Positions 18,798 to 34,243 of a stretch of DNA of 34,243 nt are shown here, piece after piece (the stretch's first letter is position 1; each line of letters opens with the position of its first letter). The stretch comes from Ignavibacteriota bacterium. Its GTDB lineage: Bacteria > Bacteroidota > Ignavibacteria > Tepidaquicellales > Tepidaquicellaceae. The stretch covers positions 1 through 34,243 of the forward strand of contig JAGQWH010000021.1 of the NCBI GenBank assembly GCA_020437545.1. The letters are read 5' to 3'. Below the pieces are notes generated by a model. The model saw nothing but the letters and a program-made list of their open reading frames with translations, ran no database searches and had not been told where the DNA came from. The translations under genes were made by a program, and so were the position numbers.

Positions 18798-20891
18798 TTA
18801 TGCAACTTCCATAAGATATAATGAATCTTTATAATCTTTCACAAAAGTTTTTCTTATCACTTTATTTTCTTCATTTCTGAGCTGCGGATCTTTTTCAACT
18901 ATTCCAAATGCAATTTTCCTCGACAATTCCAGTACATCTTTATCCCTTGTAAGATCAGTACATGAAAAGCTCAGTATTCCGGACTGTCTTATTCCGAAAA
19001 ATTCTCCCGGACCTCTGATCTCCATATCCTCTTCTGCTATCCTGAATCCGTCTGTAGTTTCACATAAAATACTCAGTCTTTTCATTGAATCATCACTCAG
19101 ATTTTTGGCGACAAGAATACAGAAGGATTGCTCGCTTCCTCTTCCCACCCTTCCGCGAAGCTGATGCAACTGTGAAAGACCAAACCTCTGAGCTTCTTCG
19201 ATTATCATAATGCTTGCATTCGGAATGTCTATTCCGACCTCTATTACAGTTGTCGAGACAAGTATATCAGTTTTTTTATTTTTAAAATCCTCAGTGGCTT
19301 CATCTTTTTCATACCATAACATCCTTCCGTGAACCATCCCGAGTCTCAGATCCGGAAATATTTTTTCTTTTAACAATACGTAATTCTCTTCAGCCGACTT
19401 CAGATCGAGTTTTTCCGATTCATCTATCAGAGGATACACGATATATACCTGCCTTCCCTTTTTTACTTCATCCCTGACGAACTCATATATCTTTGGCTTT
19501 TCATTTTCCGTTCTTAAAAAAGTTTTTATTGGGATACGGTTTTTAGGTAATTCATTAATTACCGAAACATCAAGATCACCGTAGTAGGTCATCGAAAGAG
19601 TTCTTGGGATCGGTGTAGCAGTCATAACCAGCACATCAGGATTAAATCCTTTCTCTTTTAATTTAGCCCGTTGCATCACACCGAATTTGTGCTGCTCATC
19701 GATAACTGCAAAACCAAGATTTTTAAAATCAACCTTGTCCTGTATCAATGCATGAGTTCCTATTATTATTTTTGTCTTACCTTCTCTTATTCCATCAAGA
19801 ATTTCTTCTCTGAGTTTTTTCTTTTGTCCGCCTACCAGCAGGCAGGTTTCGATATTTAAAGGTTTTAACAGATCTGATATTGTCCTGAAATGCTGTTCGG
19901 CAAGCATCTCTGTCGGGCACATAAAAGCCGCCTGATATCCGTTCTCGATAGCTATGAGCATAGAAAAAACAGCAACTATGGTTTTCCCGCTGCCGACATC
20001 TCCCTGAAGCAAACGGTTCATACACTTTTCTGATCTCATATCCAGATATATCTCATTCATTACTTTCTTCTGAGAATCCGTGAGTTCGTAAGGAAGAATG
20101 CTTTTAAATTTTTCAGTAAGTTCTTTTATGTCTTTATCAAACGTGATGCCTTTTCTTTCATTTTGGATCGACTTTTTTTTAAGTGCAAGTATAAGTTCAA
20201 GATAGAAAAGTTCTTCAAAAGCCAGACGTTTTCTTGCGGTTTCAATATCAGATAATTTTACGGGAAAATTTATTCTTAAAACGGCATCTTTTCTGCTGAT
20301 AAAATTATTATCTCTGAGTATTTCCTGAGGGAGTGTCTCTTCAATTGCATCAGGGTTGGATTTAAGCAAAGTTGCAAAGGCATTAAAGATGATCTTGGAA
20401 AGGAGCATTGGTCTTACCCAGGTTTTTTTCAGTATACCGGATAATTCATACAAAGGCAGATGCAGGAATTTCATGAAATCCATCTCAAGAGGATCATGTT
20501 CATTAATTTTCAAATGATCTCTGTAACTTATCTTCGGTACCGAGCTGAAATTTTCCCTGGTCGCTTTGATCCAGAACAGAAAATTCTCATTTAATCTGAA
20601 TTGTTTTGATCGGAATTCACTTGTCCCGAATACCGGAATATCAAGCACACCTGTCTTATCTTTCAGAATCAATTGTAACGGGTGGTTACTTTTTCTGGGA
20701 TATACGACATCTATTATCTTTCCGAATATCAGAACATTCTCGTCCAGATGCTTGTTCAGATCACGGATGTTTATCCTGGAAAGATATGTTCTCGGTATGA
20801 ATTTTAAAAAATCCTCAAGTGTATTGATCCCTATTTTGGCAAAAGCTTCAGCTCTTTTTTCACCGACTCCTTTTAGAAATTTTATGTCCAT
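18798..20891 (-). CDS. recG: ATP-dependent DNA helicase RecG
   Basis: 697 residues from ATG at 20891; a TTG at 20912 in the same frame would add seven, but the family start (helix-hairpin-helix, here DIKFLKGVGEKRAEAF) fits the ATG. The N-terminal wedge/OB domain (about 50-150, VLIFGKIIDVVYPRK) grips forked DNA. Helicase motifs: LLQGDVGSGKTI (Walker A), VIDEQHKFGV (DEQH box), MTATPIPRTL (motif III), TTVIEVGIDIPNA (motif V) and QLRGRVGRG (motif VI). RecG remodels stalled replication forks and Holliday junctions. It stands alone, with divergent transcription from the helical protein gene at 21138. Confidence 0.96.
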   Translation of the reverse strand: MDIKFLKGVGEKRAEAFAKIGINTLEDFLKFIPRTYLSRINIRDLNKHLDENVLIFGKIIDVVYPRKSNHPLQLILKDKTGVLDIPVFGTSEFRSKQFRLNENFLFWIKATRENFSSVPKISYRDHLKINEHDPLEMDFMKFLHLPLYELSGILKKTWVRPMLLSKIIFNAFATLLKSNPDAIEETLPQEILRDNNFISRKDAVLRINFPVKLSDIETARKRLAFEELFYLELILALKKKSIQNERKGITFDKDIKELTEKFKSILPYELTDSQKKVMNEIYLDMRSEKCMNRLLQGDVGSGKTIVAVFSMLIAIENGYQAAFMCPTEMLAEQHFRTISDLLKPLNIETCLLVGGQKKKLREEILDGIREGKTKIIIGTHALIQDKVDFKNLGFAVIDEQHKFGVMQRAKLKEKGFNPDVLVMTATPIPRTLSMTYYGDLDVSVINELPKNRIPIKTFLRTENEKPKIYEFVRDEVKKGRQVYIVYPLIDESEKLDLKSAEENYVLLKEKIFPDLRLGMVHGRMLWYEKDEATEDFKNKKTDILVSTTVIEVGIDIPNASIMIIEEAQRFGLSQLHQLRGRVGRGSEQSFCILVAKNLSDDSMKRLSILCETTDGFRIAEEDMEIRGPGEFFGIRQSGILSFSCTDLTRDKDVLELSRKIAFGIVEKDPQLRNEENKVIRKTFVKDYKDSLYLMEVA

Positions 20892-20909
20892 GTCAATATT
20901 TTCATTAGG

Positions 20910-20917
20910 CAAAATTA
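20910..20917 (-). promoter_or_regulatory. possible -7 element of recG
   Basis: The minus strand reads TAATTTTG, matching TAnnTTTG, 18 bases before the recG ATG. There is no TTTG at the 20-base spacing upstream. If real, transcription starts about 12 bases before the ATG and the upstream TTG cannot be the start. Confidence 0.4.
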
Positions 20918-21137: not shown

Positions 21138-22559
21138 ATGATACTGTTTTTGAATGACCTGACTGTAAATGAATTTTTTCAATTTGAGACTTTTCTGTAC
21201 TCGCCTTACTTTTCCAGAGTCCGTAACATCAAACTATTGTTTGACTACATTAAGCCGTTTTACCCGTATATAAAACCCGAACACATAACTTACGAGTCTA
21301 TTTCAAAAAATGTCCTTAATGAAAAGACAATAAACAAAGTAAAGATCCGTAAACTGATCTCTGATTTTTCAAAGCTTATAGAAACTTATTTATTGCAGGT
21401 AGAAATGGAAAGTGACAAGGATCACAACAAATTTCTGCTGTTAAACGCTCTCAGAAAGAGAGGTCTTACAAAACGATTCAATTCTGAATTAAGAACATTT
21501 TTGGATTCCAGAGGAAAATCTTTTTCAAAGGATGACAACTATTATCTGAATGATGTAAATGTTTACGATTCCATATTTTATTTTAACTTCAGTAATTTCA
21601 AACTGAAATTTGCTGATATACTTCAGGCTAAATCCGACTCTATTGATTATTTATTTTTATTTTTAAAGCTGCACATTTTCAATGAGATGATGGAGAATGA
21701 AGCCGGAAGAGATTTGAAATTCAATAAAAAATTTTTCAACGAAGTGATAAATTTTGTAAGAGACAATAAAAATGAGATCTATTCAAATCATCCGAATATC
21801 TATATAATTTATCTTGTTGTTTTAATGAATATGTCGGGGGATGATCTTTATGTGGAAGAACTGAAAAGGTATCTGAAAACAAATGAAAATAAAATAGACA
21901 AAAATAAATTAAATTATTATTACCATTATATAAGAGCCTATTATGTTGTCAAAATTAATTCCGGCAAGACTCAATACAGAGAAGATCTCTTTGAGATATT
22001 CAAACTGATGAATAAAAAGCGATTGTTTATTATAGATAATACGATCACTGATATGGAATTCAATAGTGTGATCAATACAGTCCTGGCTTTAAAAGAGTAT
22101 AAGTGGGTTAATAATTTCATAGAAGAATATAAAGAATTTCTGCATCCGGATTTTGCAAATGACGCTTACAATCTTTCCGTTTCAAAATTATTGTATCATA
22201 AAAAAGATTTTGACGGAGTATTTGAGCATCTCAACAAAGTGGAATTCAAAGATCCGTTTTATTATTATAATGCCAAGTTCTTATTGGCAAGAGTTCATTA
22301 TGATACAAAGAACTATATGGGGGTAACATATATTACTGAAAACCTGAAACAGTATTCAAGGTTTAATAAATTTTTAAAACCTGATCAGAAAAGTGTTATC
22401 AAAATTTTCAATAAATATATGAATGAACTCATAAAATTATCCGAAATGAACATAAAAAAAAGAAAATCAATGAAATCAATTCTGAGAAAACAATTAGAGA
22501 ATGAGAAAGCTCTTGTTACAAATATTAACTGGTTTTATGAAAAAATTGATAAACTCTGA
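21138..22559 (+). CDS. helical protein of unknown family, paralogue of 30035-31456
   Basis: 473 residues, Lys/Asn/Phe-rich, predicted almost entirely helical, no signal peptide or membrane segment. The N-terminus LNDLTVNEFFQFETFLYSPYFSR (2-24) aligns with LKSLNQNEIRQFKDFVNSPVFNK in the protein encoded at 30035-31456, and the alignment continues through a YP motif (FYPYIKP versus LYPEFSG) and KIRKLISDFSKLIE versus KLKNAMSDLFILGKE. Both proteins are 473 residues long. The C-terminal half reads like degenerate TPR-type helical hairpins (YYYNAKFLLARVHYDTKNYMG). An in-frame stop at 21126 fixes the start close to the ATG used. Likely a cytoplasmic scaffold; function unknown. Confidence 0.85.
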   Translation: MILFLNDLTVNEFFQFETFLYSPYFSRVRNIKLLFDYIKPFYPYIKPEHITYESISKNVLNEKTINKVKIRKLISDFSKLIETYLLQVEMESDKDHNKFLLLNALRKRGLTKRFNSELRTFLDSRGKSFSKDDNYYLNDVNVYDSIFYFNFSNFKLKFADILQAKSDSIDYLFLFLKLHIFNEMMENEAGRDLKFNKKFFNEVINFVRDNKNEIYSNHPNIYIIYLVVLMNMSGDDLYVEELKRYLKTNENKIDKNKLNYYYHYIRAYYVVKINSGKTQYREDLFEIFKLMNKKRLFIIDNTITDMEFNSVINTVLALKEYKWVNNFIEEYKEFLHPDFANDAYNLSVSKLLYHKKDFDGVFEHLNKVEFKDPFYYYNAKFLLARVHYDTKNYMGVTYITENLKQYSRFNKFLKPDQKSVIKIFNKYMNELIKLSEMNIKKRKSMKSILRKQLENEKALVTNINWFYEKIDKL

Positions 22560-30034: not shown

Positions 30035-31456
30035 TCAATTTAATTTCTCCCGCAGCCAAAGTTTTATCCCGAACTGATTAGTGGTCATGTTCTCAACGTC
30101 ATTCTTTATTTTATTAATGTAAAATTCTTTATCATTTCCGTAATGTCCGCTCCTGAGCTTCATCATAGCGTTTAAAATATTTACAAACTCATAGAACGAA
30201 TCTTTAAAATTTTCCTTGATAGTATTTTCCCTTTTGAGATAATGACGGAAATTATCTATGGCAGAAACAGCCTGATCAAAATATTCTTTATCAAAAAAGA
30301 TCTGAAGTTCTAATATTTTCACCTGAATCTTTATTATGAAATTCGGGAAGTTAGTCATTGAAAGCAGTTCCAGAGCTTTATCCGGATTTCCCTTTTTCAG
30401 ATTTATCATGGCATTGCAAAAATAAATAGTGCTTTCAGTATCACTGCTGAGACGCGGAGCGTTCCTGATTATATAATCTTCAGCCCACTCTGTCTGATTG
30501 TCTCTCAGAGAGATCTTCACTTCATTGATGAAATCCGGATACAGCAGCTTTCCGAGGGAAGTAAAGTCACGGGTGTTTTTTTCGCGGATTATTTCAAAAT
30601 GCTCTTTGATCAGATCTGATCTCGTGTTTATGTTGTATTCGTTTGTACAATAACCGTTGAGATGAAGGAATACCATGTATGAATCATAAACGCTGATCTC
30701 ATCTTTGTATTTTATCCCGGCTTCTTTCAGATTGCGAAAATTAACATCATTACGTTCACGCTCGAGTGAAATTATATGATAATAAATCTGCATGGTCGGG
30801 TTATCAATTTTGCTGTTTTCAACAAATGACATGAACTCGTTTAATAAATGCTTTTCGTATACTATGTTGTTTTGCTTTTCCTCATGCAGCATGACATTAT
30901 ATGACCTGAAGATCTTTATAATTGAATAGTAAAAAAACAGATCAAACATCTTCTGCTGATAATCCAGAAGTTTGTTAGGTGTCTGCGGAACAAGAAAACT
31001 AAGCTCCTGCATAACAAGCTCAAGTTTGTGAAATATATAGTGTTCATCTTTAACAGCCAGTTTTTCAATTCTTTCAACTGCCGCTTTATGTTCCTGCTTA
31101 AAAAATGTTTTAAGATCCCTTAACCGGAGTTCATCAATAAGATATTTCTCCTGAATCATGTTATCGTTTCTGAATCTTACGAATTTAAGAAACTCCTTCC
31201 CCAGAATGAACAGATCCGACATTGCATTCTTCAGCTTAAAATAATTATAACTTTCACCGGGAAAAACTTTGCCGAAAAATATTTCTTCGTTCAACTTATC
31301 TCCGCTAAATTCCGGATATAGCTTCTTAAGTTCATCAAACATTCTGATGAGTATTTCTTTTTTATTAAATACAGGTGAGTTTACAAAATCCTTGAACTGC
31401 CTTATTTCATTCTGATTTAAAGACTTAAGAAGTTTTATTACCTTAGAATTTTCCAA
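30035..31456 (-). CDS. helical protein of unknown family, paralogue of 21138-22559
   Basis: 473 residues, charged and helical, no signal peptide or membrane segment. It aligns end to end, weakly, with the protein encoded at 21138-22559: NEIRQFKDFVNSPVFNKKE corresponds to NEFFQFETFLYSPYFSRVR, and the following LYP, FKLKNAMSDLF and KDEHYIFHKLELV regions match in spacing. The C-terminal half again looks like TPR-type hairpins (AMINLKKGNPDKALELLSM, about 347-365). The start is TTG at 31456; upstream frame is open but lacks an ATG close by. Its own promoter was not found. Function unknown; possibly a scaffold. Confidence 0.85.
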   Translation of the reverse strand: MENSKVIKLLKSLNQNEIRQFKDFVNSPVFNKKEILIRMFDELKKLYPEFSGDKLNEEIFFGKVFPGESYNYFKLKNAMSDLFILGKEFLKFVRFRNDNMIQEKYLIDELRLRDLKTFFKQEHKAAVERIEKLAVKDEHYIFHKLELVMQELSFLVPQTPNKLLDYQQKMFDLFFYYSIIKIFRSYNVMLHEEKQNNIVYEKHLLNEFMSFVENSKIDNPTMQIYYHIISLERERNDVNFRNLKEAGIKYKDEISVYDSYMVFLHLNGYCTNEYNINTRSDLIKEHFEIIREKNTRDFTSLGKLLYPDFINEVKISLRDNQTEWAEDYIIRNAPRLSSDTESTIYFCNAMINLKKGNPDKALELLSMTNFPNFIIKIQVKILELQIFFDKEYFDQAVSAIDNFRHYLKRENTIKENFKDSFYEFVNILNAMMKLRSGHYGNDKEFYINKIKNDVENMTTNQFGIKLWLREKLN

Positions 31457-31580
31457 ATAAGTAAAATTAAATAAGTTAGCGGGTGAAAAGATGCTTTTAA
31501 ATATTTTAATTTTGGCAAAATATCAAACAATTTCGAGAGTTTCAATTTAATGTTAACTGCTAAAACCAGAAAAAACTTTC

Positions 31581-31612
31581 TTTGACAGCGAGAGCTGTCG
31601 TCTATATCTTTG
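31581..31612 (+). promoter_or_regulatory. promoter of the repeat-rich secreted protein, with palindrome in its spacer
   Basis: TTTG (31581-31584) and TATCTTTG (31605-31612) have a 20-base spacer, the same as at allB. The spacer contains GACAGC-GAGA-GCTGTC (31584-31599), a perfect 6-bp inverted repeat that overlaps the -33 element, so it is well placed to be an operator. The predicted transcription start is near 31619, the first base of the leader inverted repeat. Confidence 0.65.
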
Positions 31613-31618
31613 TTACCA

Positions 31619-31785
31619 ATTGGCGAAACGAGTAATGAATTCAAAAACTTTTAAATACCTCTCACATACAGCCCTATATATCATTGCTCGTATCGCCAAT
31701 ACAGCTTAGCTGATAGTAAGTTGGCTTAATTCCTTCTTATTATTGTGAGAGGTGTTTTTTAAAAATACTAAAAGGAGAAATTGCA
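31619..31785 (+). promoter_or_regulatory. structured 5' leader, candidate attenuator or pseudoknot
   Basis: 167 bases between predicted transcript start and ATG. Arm A ATTGGCGAAACGAGTAATG (31619-31637) pairs with A' CATTGCTCGTATCGCCAAT (31682-31700), 17 Watson-Crick pairs plus one G-U. Arm B ACCTCTCACA (31657-31666) pairs perfectly with B' TGTGAGAGGT (31744-31753), which is followed by GTTTTTT, as in a terminator. Order A-B-A'-B' means the helices form a pseudoknot or compete. A third helix GCCAA (31695-31699) with TTGGC (31721-31725), enclosing CAGC-TTA-GCTG (31702-31712), competes with A'. A Shine-Dalgarno GGAG lies at 31774-31777. It matches no riboswitch class that I recognise. The stretch 31457-31618 also holds the promoter; no gene is seen in it. 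Confidence 0.6.
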
Positions 31786-34243
31786 ATGAAAGTGTTTACT
31801 AAGAGTTTATCAGTACTTTTATTAATTTTTTGCGTTTCAGGAAATTTGGCTTTTGCCGCAAATGAGTTGTTCAGAAGCATTGCTAACGGCAACTGGAATT
31901 CAACATCCACGTGGGAAATGTCAACCAACGGCGGATCGTTATGGTTTGCTGCTACAAGTACACCGACAAATCTGAGCAGTACTATCACTATTAACAATAC
32001 AGTGACAGTTACAGAAAATGTTACTGCAGATCAGATCATACTTAGCGGCGGTTCTGATCTTTCAATTGCATCCGGAATTACTCTTACTTATCCGGGTAAT
32101 GGAGGTTCGATTTTGGTATCAGGAAATTCAATATCGGGTGCGGGTACATTCAGGATAGAAGGATCGTTTTTTCTGGATCTGAGACCAAACGGAGTTTTCA
32201 GTGCGGGTTTGAGAGTAGCGTCCGGTACAATCATAGCAACCAGTGGTGCAAGCCCTTATATCGGAAGACTTTACGGTCCCGTAACGGTTGATTCAGGTGC
32301 AATTCTTTCGCCGTCCATGACAGGGAATGTCATAGTATATGCTCTCGAGATATATGGTAATGTTATAAATAACGGAACGTTGACTGCAGGCGGCGGAAAT
32401 AACACTAATCGTAACAAGTATATCAGATTCAAAGGAGAAGAGTTTGTTAATAACGGGGCAGTGACTGTATTTACAATTATTCTTGATACGAATACGACTA
32501 TCTCCGGCGCAGGGACATTTACTCCCTATAGAATTTATATTGATTCAAACGGAAGTGTTACAATGCTTTCTGACATGACATTTTCTCCGGGAAATGATTT
32601 TCATTTTATCAGCGGAGGGACATTGAATCCAAACGGATATACATTAAATTTTACTTCGGCGACTTTAACGCTAAACAGCGGATCAACAATAACCAATTCG
32701 GGATTAATCAGAACTCAAAATACTGTCAACTTAAATTTAAGAGCCGGTTCGAATTTTAACGCTCCGCTGAATGTAAACACAGGCCTTACAAATGCAACGG
32801 ATTTTTCTTCACCTTATGTCGGACGGTTATACGGTCCGGTAACTGTAGATGCCGGAGCAACGCTTGCGCCAACCTTGACTGGGAATGTCATAGTTTATGG
32901 TCTCGAGATTTACGGTAATGTAATTAATAACGGGACTCTGACTGCCGGCGGGGGCAATAACACTAATTTAAACAAGTATATCATTTTCAAAGGAGGTGAA
33001 TTTGTAAATAACGGAACAGTGTCGGTGTTTACAATATCTCTCGATACAAATATAAATATCTCAGGAGCGGGGACTTTTACTCCTTATCGTATCTATGTAG
33101 GCGCAAACGGAAATGCTACAATGCTTTCTGACATGACTTTTTCTCCTGCCCTGGAACTTCACTTTATAAGCGGAGGTATGCTGAATCCAAACGGGAATAC
33201 ATTAAATTTCACTTCGGGTACATTGCAGCTTAACAACGGAGCAATAATTGCCAATTCCGGATTATTCAGAACGCAGAATACCGTTAACTTAAATCTAAGA
33301 GCCGGCTCAAATTTTAACGCTCCGCTCAGAGTAAGTTCAGGGCTTACAAATGCAACTGATTATTCAACACCTTATGTCGGAAGATTATATGGTCCTGTCA
33401 CCGTAGATACGGGAGCAACTCTTGCACCGACTATGACGGGTGGAACTATAGTTTATCATCTTGAATATTACGGGAATGTTACGAACAACGGAACACTTAC
33501 AGCCGGAGGATTCAACAATACCCAGTTTCTCAAGTCAATGAGATTCAAATGTCCTGTATTCGTCAATAACGGACTATTGTCTGTACTGACAGTTAATCTC
33601 GATACAAATCTAACTCTTTCGGGTACAGGATCTTTTACAACCAATGTAAATATTCTCAGCAACAGAAATGTTACTCTCACATCTGATCATCAGTTTAGCT
33701 CAGCAATAATTAACAGCGGTTCAACTTTTACTATCAGCAACAGCAGAGCTAAATTCACTGCTTCAAATCCGATACTTCAAAACGGAAGCTTCATTACAAC
33801 TAATTCAAAAGTAGAATATAACGGAACAGTATTACAGACGATATCTTCCGCCAATATTAATTATAACGGTTTAATAATAAATAATCCTGCCGGCGCAATA
33901 TTAACAGGAAGCTTTACAATTCCTGATACTCTAAGTTTCATATCAGGAGATCTTAATCTGAACGGAAACAACATTACTTTTATGCCCGATGCATATTTAA
34001 ATGAAACTCCGGGAAATCTTGTCTTTGGAAATACAGGATTCTTAGTAACAACAAGAACTTTAGGAGCTCCTTCTGCTCTGAATGTTGCAGGGTTCGGAGC
34101 TCTGCTCACGTCTTCATCAAGTCTTGGCAGTACTGAAATAAAAAGAGGTCATACAGTTCAGAACGGATTAAACGGCGGAACAAGTATTAAAAGATATTAT
34201 GATATTACTCCTGCAAACAATACCGGTCTTAATGCAAGCCTGG
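31786..34243 (+). CDS. large secreted protein with 186-residue tandem repeats (3' end beyond window)
   Basis: An open frame from ATG at 31786 runs 819 codons to the window edge without a stop. Signal peptide: KSLSVLLLIFCVSGNLAFA (6-24), cleaved before ANELF. The following WNSTSTWEM stretch resembles the start of many Ignavibacteria surface proteins. From about residue 156 the sequence is Asn/Thr/Gly-rich, short beta strands, in a repeat of 186 residues: PYIGRLYGPVTVD, PYVGRLYGPVTVD and PYVGRLYGPVTVD recur at bases 32251, 32809 and 33367. After about residue 600 the third copy diverges into other beta-strand sequence. A beta-helix or beta-solenoid stalk with a C-terminal T9SS sorting domain beyond the window is expected from the family but not visible. 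GGAG eight bases upstream of the ATG is the clearest ribosome site in the window. Confidence 0.9.
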   Translation, partial: MKVFTKSLSVLLLIFCVSGNLAFAANELFRSIANGNWNSTSTWEMSTNGGSLWFAATSTPTNLSSTITINNTVTVTENVTADQIILSGGSDLSIASGITLTYPGNGGSILVSGNSISGAGTFRIEGSFFLDLRPNGVFSAGLRVASGTIIATSGASPYIGRLYGPVTVDSGAILSPSMTGNVIVYALEIYGNVINNGTLTAGGGNNTNRNKYIRFKGEEFVNNGAVTVFTIILDTNTTISGAGTFTPYRIYIDSNGSVTMLSDMTFSPGNDFHFISGGTLNPNGYTLNFTSATLTLNSGSTITNSGLIRTQNTVNLNLRAGSNFNAPLNVNTGLTNATDFSSPYVGRLYGPVTVDAGATLAPTLTGNVIVYGLEIYGNVINNGTLTAGGGNNTNLNKYIIFKGGEFVNNGTVSVFTISLDTNINISGAGTFTPYRIYVGANGNATMLSDMTFSPALELHFISGGMLNPNGNTLNFTSGTLQLNNGAIIANSGLFRTQNTVNLNLRAGSNFNAPLRVSSGLTNATDYSTPYVGRLYGPVTVDTGATLAPTMTGGTIVYHLEYYGNVTNNGTLTAGGFNNTQFLKSMRFKCPVFVNNGLLSVLTVNLDTNLTLSGTGSFTTNVNILSNRNVTLTSDHQFSSAIINSGSTFTISNSRAKFTASNPILQNGSFITTNSKVEYNGTVLQTISSANINYNGLIINNPAGAILTGSFTIPDTLSFISGDLNLNGNNITFMPDAYLNETPGNLVFGNTGFLVTTRTLGAPSALNVAGFGALLTSSSSLGSTEIKRGHTVQNGLNGGTSIKRYYDITPANNTGLNASL
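32251..33924 (+). repeat. 558-bp coding tandem repeats
   Basis: Repeat starts at 32251, 32809 and 33367 are exactly 558 bases (186 codons) apart. Copies 1 and 2 are full length and similar over their whole length at DNA level, for example GGGAATGTCATAGT and CTCGAGAT at the same offsets. Copy 3 keeps similarity for about 90 residues and then departs. A partial older copy may precede copy 1, since LRVASG upstream of copy 1 matches LRVSSG upstream of copy 3. The end coordinate is where a third full copy would stop. Confidence 0.85.

Follow-up and report, generated by a model that had tools for sequence, protein, structure and literature searches.

The window, a 34,243-nucleotide stretch of an Ignavibacteria genome, ends within a gene for a secreted repeat-rich protein, upstream of which, on the opposite strand, lies the gene for the helical protein P0002 (Table 1). 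The region between these divergent genes contains a promoter, a predicted transcript start, a set of interlocked inverted repeats and a Shine-Dalgarno sequence.

Table 1. Features of the leader and its flanking genes, in window coordinates
Feature	Position	Strand	Basis or remark
P0002, divergent 473-aa all-helical TPR-like protein, large unnamed family	30035..31456	-	
Promoter module CTAAAA-N11-TTTCTTTG (upstream box and -33 box)	31560..31584	+	Spacing fixed at 25 nt; recognisable at all 21 leaders
-7 box TATCTTTG	31605..31612	+	Bacteroidota TAnnTTTG position; predicted start 31617
P1 5′ arm (a), ATTGGCGAAACGAGTAATG	31619..31637	+	Pairing read from the sequence; leader comparison
P2 5′ arm (b), ACCTCTCACA	31657..31666	+	Both-side changes: 8/10 pairs in structure-blind alignment, 10/10 on 21 leaders (alignment fitted to P2)
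P1 3′ arm (a′)	31682..31700	+	Pairing and leader comparison
P4, small hairpin GTAT-CGCCA-ATAC within a′, excludes part of P1	31690..31702 (stem 31690-31693/31699-31702)	+	Most subtypes; moderate support
P5 hairpin, 31702-31708 with 31717-31723	31702..31723	+	MFE structure; counterparts in most leaders, window's subtype only
P2 3′ arm (b′), TGTGAGAGGT	31744..31753	+	Compensatory changes with b
U-run after P2, terminator-like	31755..31760	+	Sequence; T enrichment over 54 leaders
Shine-Dalgarno AAGGAG	31772..31777	+	Sequence
Secreted repeat-rich protein gene, runs off window	31786..34242	+	

The original prediction described a 19-base arm pairing almost fully with a downstream segment and, interlocked with it, a perfect 10-bp helix ending in GTTTTTT, and both are found as described. 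P1 pairs at 18 of its 19 positions, a pattern for which 0.02 chance matches are expected in the whole window, and the 10 bp of P2 can be extended to 14 (31653–31666 with 31744–31757). The strands follow the order a-b-a′-b′, with GTTTTTT placed directly after P2. The fold of the 167-nt stretch, which captures the nested part only, has an energy of −43.6 kcal/mol (z = −5.15; none of 200 shuffles is equally stable), while P1 and P2 summed as a pseudoknot reach −42.3 kcal/mol as compared to −28.3 kcal/mol for the best among 30 shuffles. The third helix of that prediction (GCCAA at 31695–31699 with TTGGC at 31721–31725) is present in the window but is not conserved, its partner being absent in G002 and G010. 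A further helix (P3, TATC/GATA), drawn at first, was set aside as limited to some members.

A TAnnTTTG box located at −12 to −5 relative to the start has been reported for Flavobacterium (PMC9723704), and the transcript start predicted for the window follows from the placement of TATCTTTG at the corresponding position. Thus, the transcript would begin close to arm a as originally claimed, but not at its very first base, since the arm opens at +3. The arrangement recurs upstream of all 21 leaders described below: CTAAAA and TTTCTTTG are separated by about 11 nt, and a TAnnTTTG-like box stands a few bases ahead of arm a, which in most leaders starts approximately +1 to +10 from the inferred start and usually at +2 to +6. 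Between the -33 and -7 boxes the window also has an inverted repeat, GACAGC-GAGA-GCTGTC (31584–31600), which is absent in G002.

DNA and protein searches of relatives recovered homologous leaders ahead of a secreted-protein gene in G002, G010, G001, G014, G022, G023 and G013. A covariance model built from eight leaders then retrieved 21 convincing copies from nine same-family genomes, with this genome contributing five, and each is followed on the same strand by a gene whose product has a signal-peptide-like N-terminus. The original prediction had proposed covariation among such leaders as its test, with missing arms or uncompensated substitutions counting against it, and the homologous leaders bear it out. 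In the 21 leaders, 92.4% of the P1 and P2 cells hold standard pairs as against 32–49% in controls with slid partners, and all ten P2 pairs display changes on both sides in this alignment, which was fitted to P2. In a structure-blind MAFFT alignment of eight leaders, double changes are seen in 8 of the 10 P2 pairs, a result matched by none of 500 shuffles. P1 is mostly invariant within the window's subtype, the exception being a single U-A to A-U exchange present in six sequences; compensatory support is hence strong for P2 and comes chiefly from between subtypes for P1. R1 matches in G047, G019 and G038 (E 0.01–0.8) look like chance, the one in G047 being without a pseudoknot, and a dispersed repeat or MITE was rejected, as matches elsewhere in a DNA search of the own genome are limited to the promoter box and short AT-rich segments. 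Two leaders from two genomes (L071 and L067) have arrays of short ACTTAAT tandem repeats between the leader and the start codon, downstream of P2.

The same layout, built from other P1 and P2 sequences, also lies ahead of P0002-like genes, of which many belong to the sister family. One such subtype pairs GGCTATATGATGC with GCATCGTATAGCC and ATCCCCC with GGGGGAT, a second CGGCTATG with CATAGCCG and CCGCCAA with TTGGCGG, and a third CTAATGGCA with TGCCATTAG and ACCTTCCG with CGGAAGGT; further arm pairs are GGCGAAAACG/CGTTTTCGCC, CAGCGAAACAG/CTGTTTCGCTG, CGGGAGAGAAAAT/ATTTTCTCTCCCG and AGCGCATAAATTT/AAATTTATGCGCT. Among 54 leaders chosen by inspection, P1 is represented by 35 different arm pairs and P2 by 47, and 51 of the 54 score below all ten of their own shuffles; the automatic scan chose the wrong P1 in a handful (e.g., L036, L224, C165 and G029 661232), which were read by eye. 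Both stems are complementary in almost all leaders, in the a-b-a′-b′ order of an H-type pseudoknot, with loops long enough to cross the stems (L1 mostly 12–40 nt and L2 mostly 10–30 nt; L3 20–57 nt in the window's subtype and 18–26 nt in the majority of leaders from the other subtypes). The arms of the CGGCTATG subtype are nearly invariant, so covariation within it is uninformative.

Since these 54 leaders were hand-picked, a search for the promoter module provides the unbiased test. The pattern CTAAAA-N{8,15}-TTTCTTTG was matched exactly at nine sites in the 4.29-Mb genome and at 30 sites in eight relatives. A reversed-pattern control gives a similar count, and the discriminating feature is therefore the exact 25-nt spacing; in the 4.29-Mb genome most matches with this spacing sit at leaders. 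Five of the nine newly examined 25-nt-spaced sites hold a clear pseudoknot of a previously unseen subtype (AAGGCGAT..GAAGATG with CATCTTCATCGCCTT, P2 of CCCCCG/CGGGGG or similar, and a U-run; 0 of 100 shuffles for each). Four of these precede a lipoprotein and outer-membrane-protein-like gene pair and the fifth is cut off by the end of its contig. None of nine differently spaced module sites has a pseudoknot, the low score of L260 being due to a plain inverted repeat. This genome has a further GAAGATG-subtype leader (L252, G000:C72:1-150), which a contig end truncates.

The product of the divergent gene, P0002, matches no Pfam or NCBIfam family. Its relatives number 50, 52, 45 and 33 matches in four genomes (G000, G029, G032 and G010; fragments included) and are almost confined to two families of this Ignavibacteria order. 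The AlphaFold2 model is an all-helical solenoid (pLDDT 91), and VIA-align places the TPR domains of the RRNPP receptors Rap and NprR first for residues 139–473 (Z 15.7, rmsd 5.7, 284 aligned, 8% identity), a weak likeness given that helical repeats align widely. Unlike these receptors, P0002 is without a matching N-terminal HTH: Foldseek returns no significant match for its N-terminal 142 residues, and the two best structure rows for the model of this part are weak (Z 5.2 and 4.4) and contain OmpR-type winged helices. The charge of the protein is near neutral and it is not obviously RNA-binding. A second member of the family in the window (21138–22559, +), divergent to recG (18798–20912, −), is without a pseudoknot leader.

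A P0002-like gene of about 475 codons is the divergent neighbor of the leader at 13 of the 19 copies whose contig permits the check, typically starting about 150–235 nt away, with one annotated start overlapping the leader. At the other six the leader and the secreted gene are kept without a P0002-like neighbor, one of them having only a decayed P0002-like fragment upstream. The decayed P0002-like fragment at L073 (G000:C414:12187-12453) has seven stops and lies about 160 nt upstream of an intact leader. The RNA accompanies the clade nearest P0002, being present at 9 of 11 sampled members as compared to about 4 among 75 others, with classes assigned by inspection, and the idea that all of the roughly 50 paralogues carry it was accordingly rejected. 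In a maximum-likelihood tree the P0002-like proteins group by leader subtype, with the exception of G042, where a GGCTATATG leader falls inside a clade with otherwise differently worded leaders; such shared inheritance of leader subtype and protein clade is not by itself proof of interaction. Conversely, the module is kept and the pseudoknot missing at L027 (G011:C56) and L230 (G022:C75) beside P0002-like genes and at L265 (G014:C22) elsewhere, in each case before the expected type of gene, the RNA having apparently been lost. Leaders without the neighbor and modules without the RNA together indicate that the RNA belongs to the downstream gene, with the protein as a frequent companion.

Over the 54 leaders, the 8 nt after P2 are 62% T as compared to a background of 34%, and at least five of the eight are T in 37 leaders, leaving 17 without a strong U-run. 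As a terminator P2 would have to span a loop of about 50–110 nt, and a simple terminator scanner does not call it. P1 and P2 are compatible with each other as a pseudoknot, unlike the usual mutually exclusive pair; the sole either/or pairing found is that between P1 and the small hairpin in a′, which is moderately supported. Hairpins of this type occur in most subtypes, are absent in the CGGCTATG subtype, and average −5.0 as against −3.4 with shuffled flanks, that is, they are only moderately stronger. Two leaders of this genome (G000 C69 and C165) differ by one substitution in a′, and arm a and the sequence that pairs with a′ in the hairpin have changed along with it. P1 and the hairpin are both kept as a result, which suggests that both pairings are under selection. 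A leader-peptide attenuator was rejected, as the 24-codon ORF of this leader is unrelated or absent in the other 20, and no unpaired core common to the subtypes was seen across those compared.

Judged by its sequence and that of its relatives, the region is a genuine folded cis-acting 5′ leader RNA with a predicted pseudoknot at the inferred transcript start, ahead of secreted and outer-membrane genes, and it probably controls the amount of surface protein made. We tentatively posit, as a quite possible mechanism, that it gates this expression by conditional termination at P2 and the U-run, with the divergent protein as the likely trans factor. Arm a, made up of the transcript's first bases, would pair with a′ downstream, and b, inside the loop thus made, with b′ beyond, forming an H-type pseudoknot whose second stem abuts the U-run. 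P2 and the U-run would then act as a conditional intrinsic terminator (or as a decay element or roadblock) in the untranslated leader, and formation of P2 may be set by the state of a/a′, which could adopt either the long P1 or the local hairpin, in which case P2 is simply nested. Setting that state, and so gating the surface protein, would most likely fall to the divergent protein. The original prediction had offered an attenuating riboswitch or a protein-sensed leader: its structured cis leader, interlocked helices, U-run, Shine-Dalgarno sequence and secreted-protein gene all stand, while the metabolite branch is not supported, for want of a shared unpaired core. The protein-sensed leader remains the better half of that reading because the helical-repeat protein gene is the recurrent divergent neighbor, and sensing is thus proposed from genomic association.

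The pseudoknot might instead be a stabilizer that conceals the 5′ end and shields long, abundant mRNAs of surface proteins from decay, with neither switching nor a partner protein. Such a role would fit several observations: in almost every leader arm a is no more than a few nucleotides from the predicted start, the pairing is kept while the sequence drifts freely, and the downstream genes are mostly long and secreted; yet neither the enrichment of a U-run after P2 nor the strong tie to one protein clade is expected from it, and we consider it somewhat unlikely.

We regard as unlikely, too, a reading in which the divergent protein acts as a transcription factor on the common promoter module and the RNA is an independent layer. 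The protein may indeed act at the promoter instead, given the modules kept beside P0002-like genes where the RNA is lost; the module is largely specific to this regulon, and the faint winged-helix likeness of the P0002 N-terminus would be in keeping with such a role. However, one module serves different protein clades, it is the RNA sequence rather than the module that tracks the clade, and the Foldseek result for the N-terminus offers no backing. A stand-alone trans-acting small RNA ending at the U-run, with the downstream gene transcribed by read-through, would account for the own promoter, the compact fold and the U-run, but is quite improbable, as the element, wherever the contig continues, always leads into a secreted or outer-membrane gene on its own strand and has no conserved unpaired seed. 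A new class of metabolite or ion riboswitch would share the leader position, the pseudoknot and the U-run; it is most improbable, however, because no unpaired part is common to the subtypes, and the downstream genes are without an evident common pathway. Moreover, Rfam 15 has no family above its gathering threshold for the window or 16 related loci, and a loose threshold gave chance matches only, which agrees with the original view that the leader fits no recognized class. A DNA-level element (an operator pair or recombination site) would explain near-perfect inverted repeats, but the fixed position relative to promoter and start, the U-run, the a-b-a′-b′ topology and compensatory change without conserved sequence make it a negligible prospect.

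The protein-sensed, conditionally terminating leader that we favor would share with intrinsic-terminator attenuators and protein-sensed leaders (trp/pyr type, ribosomal-protein leaders) an untranslated leader, in most copies a GC-rich stem directly before a U-run, a possible exclusive alternative pairing and a candidate protein partner. It differs from them in that a long-looped pseudoknot supplies the terminator-like stem as its second stem, the partner gene is divergent and outside the operon, and the sequence is wholly different between paralogous leaders. Like ompA-type 5′-protective stem-loops, it locks the 5′ end of the transcript in a stem ahead of outer-membrane or secreted cargo, but with a pseudoknot instead of a simple hairpin, a U-run and a linked protein family. 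The preQ1, SAM-II and fluoride riboswitches likewise have a pseudoknot in the leader; unlike them, the present RNA has no conserved ligand core, pathway link or Rfam match. Within the library searched, no paper was found that connects Ignavibacteria with leaders of this type. Structured cis-regulatory leaders as such are a known kind of element; the novelty lies in combining a fixed topology with stems whose sequences change freely and with a companion protein that has paralogues.

These leaders constitute an uncatalogued family of structured RNAs. Its members retain topology, position and promoter, but both stem sequences are replaced wholesale between paralogues, as a result of which sequence-based RNA searches miss most of the family. 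The leaders provide a way into the question of how Ignavibacteria control their outer-membrane and secreted proteins, as well as an initial hint of what the unnamed P0002 family does, which has 33–52 matches per genome in the four genomes counted. It is conceivable, though rather doubtful, that each of the paralogous helical-repeat proteins recognizes, as its cognate RNA, the re-worded leader to which its gene is divergent, and that the proteins individually switch these bacteria's repertoire of surface proteins. If leader and protein do form such cognate pairs, they would be naturally orthogonal RNA–protein regulators.
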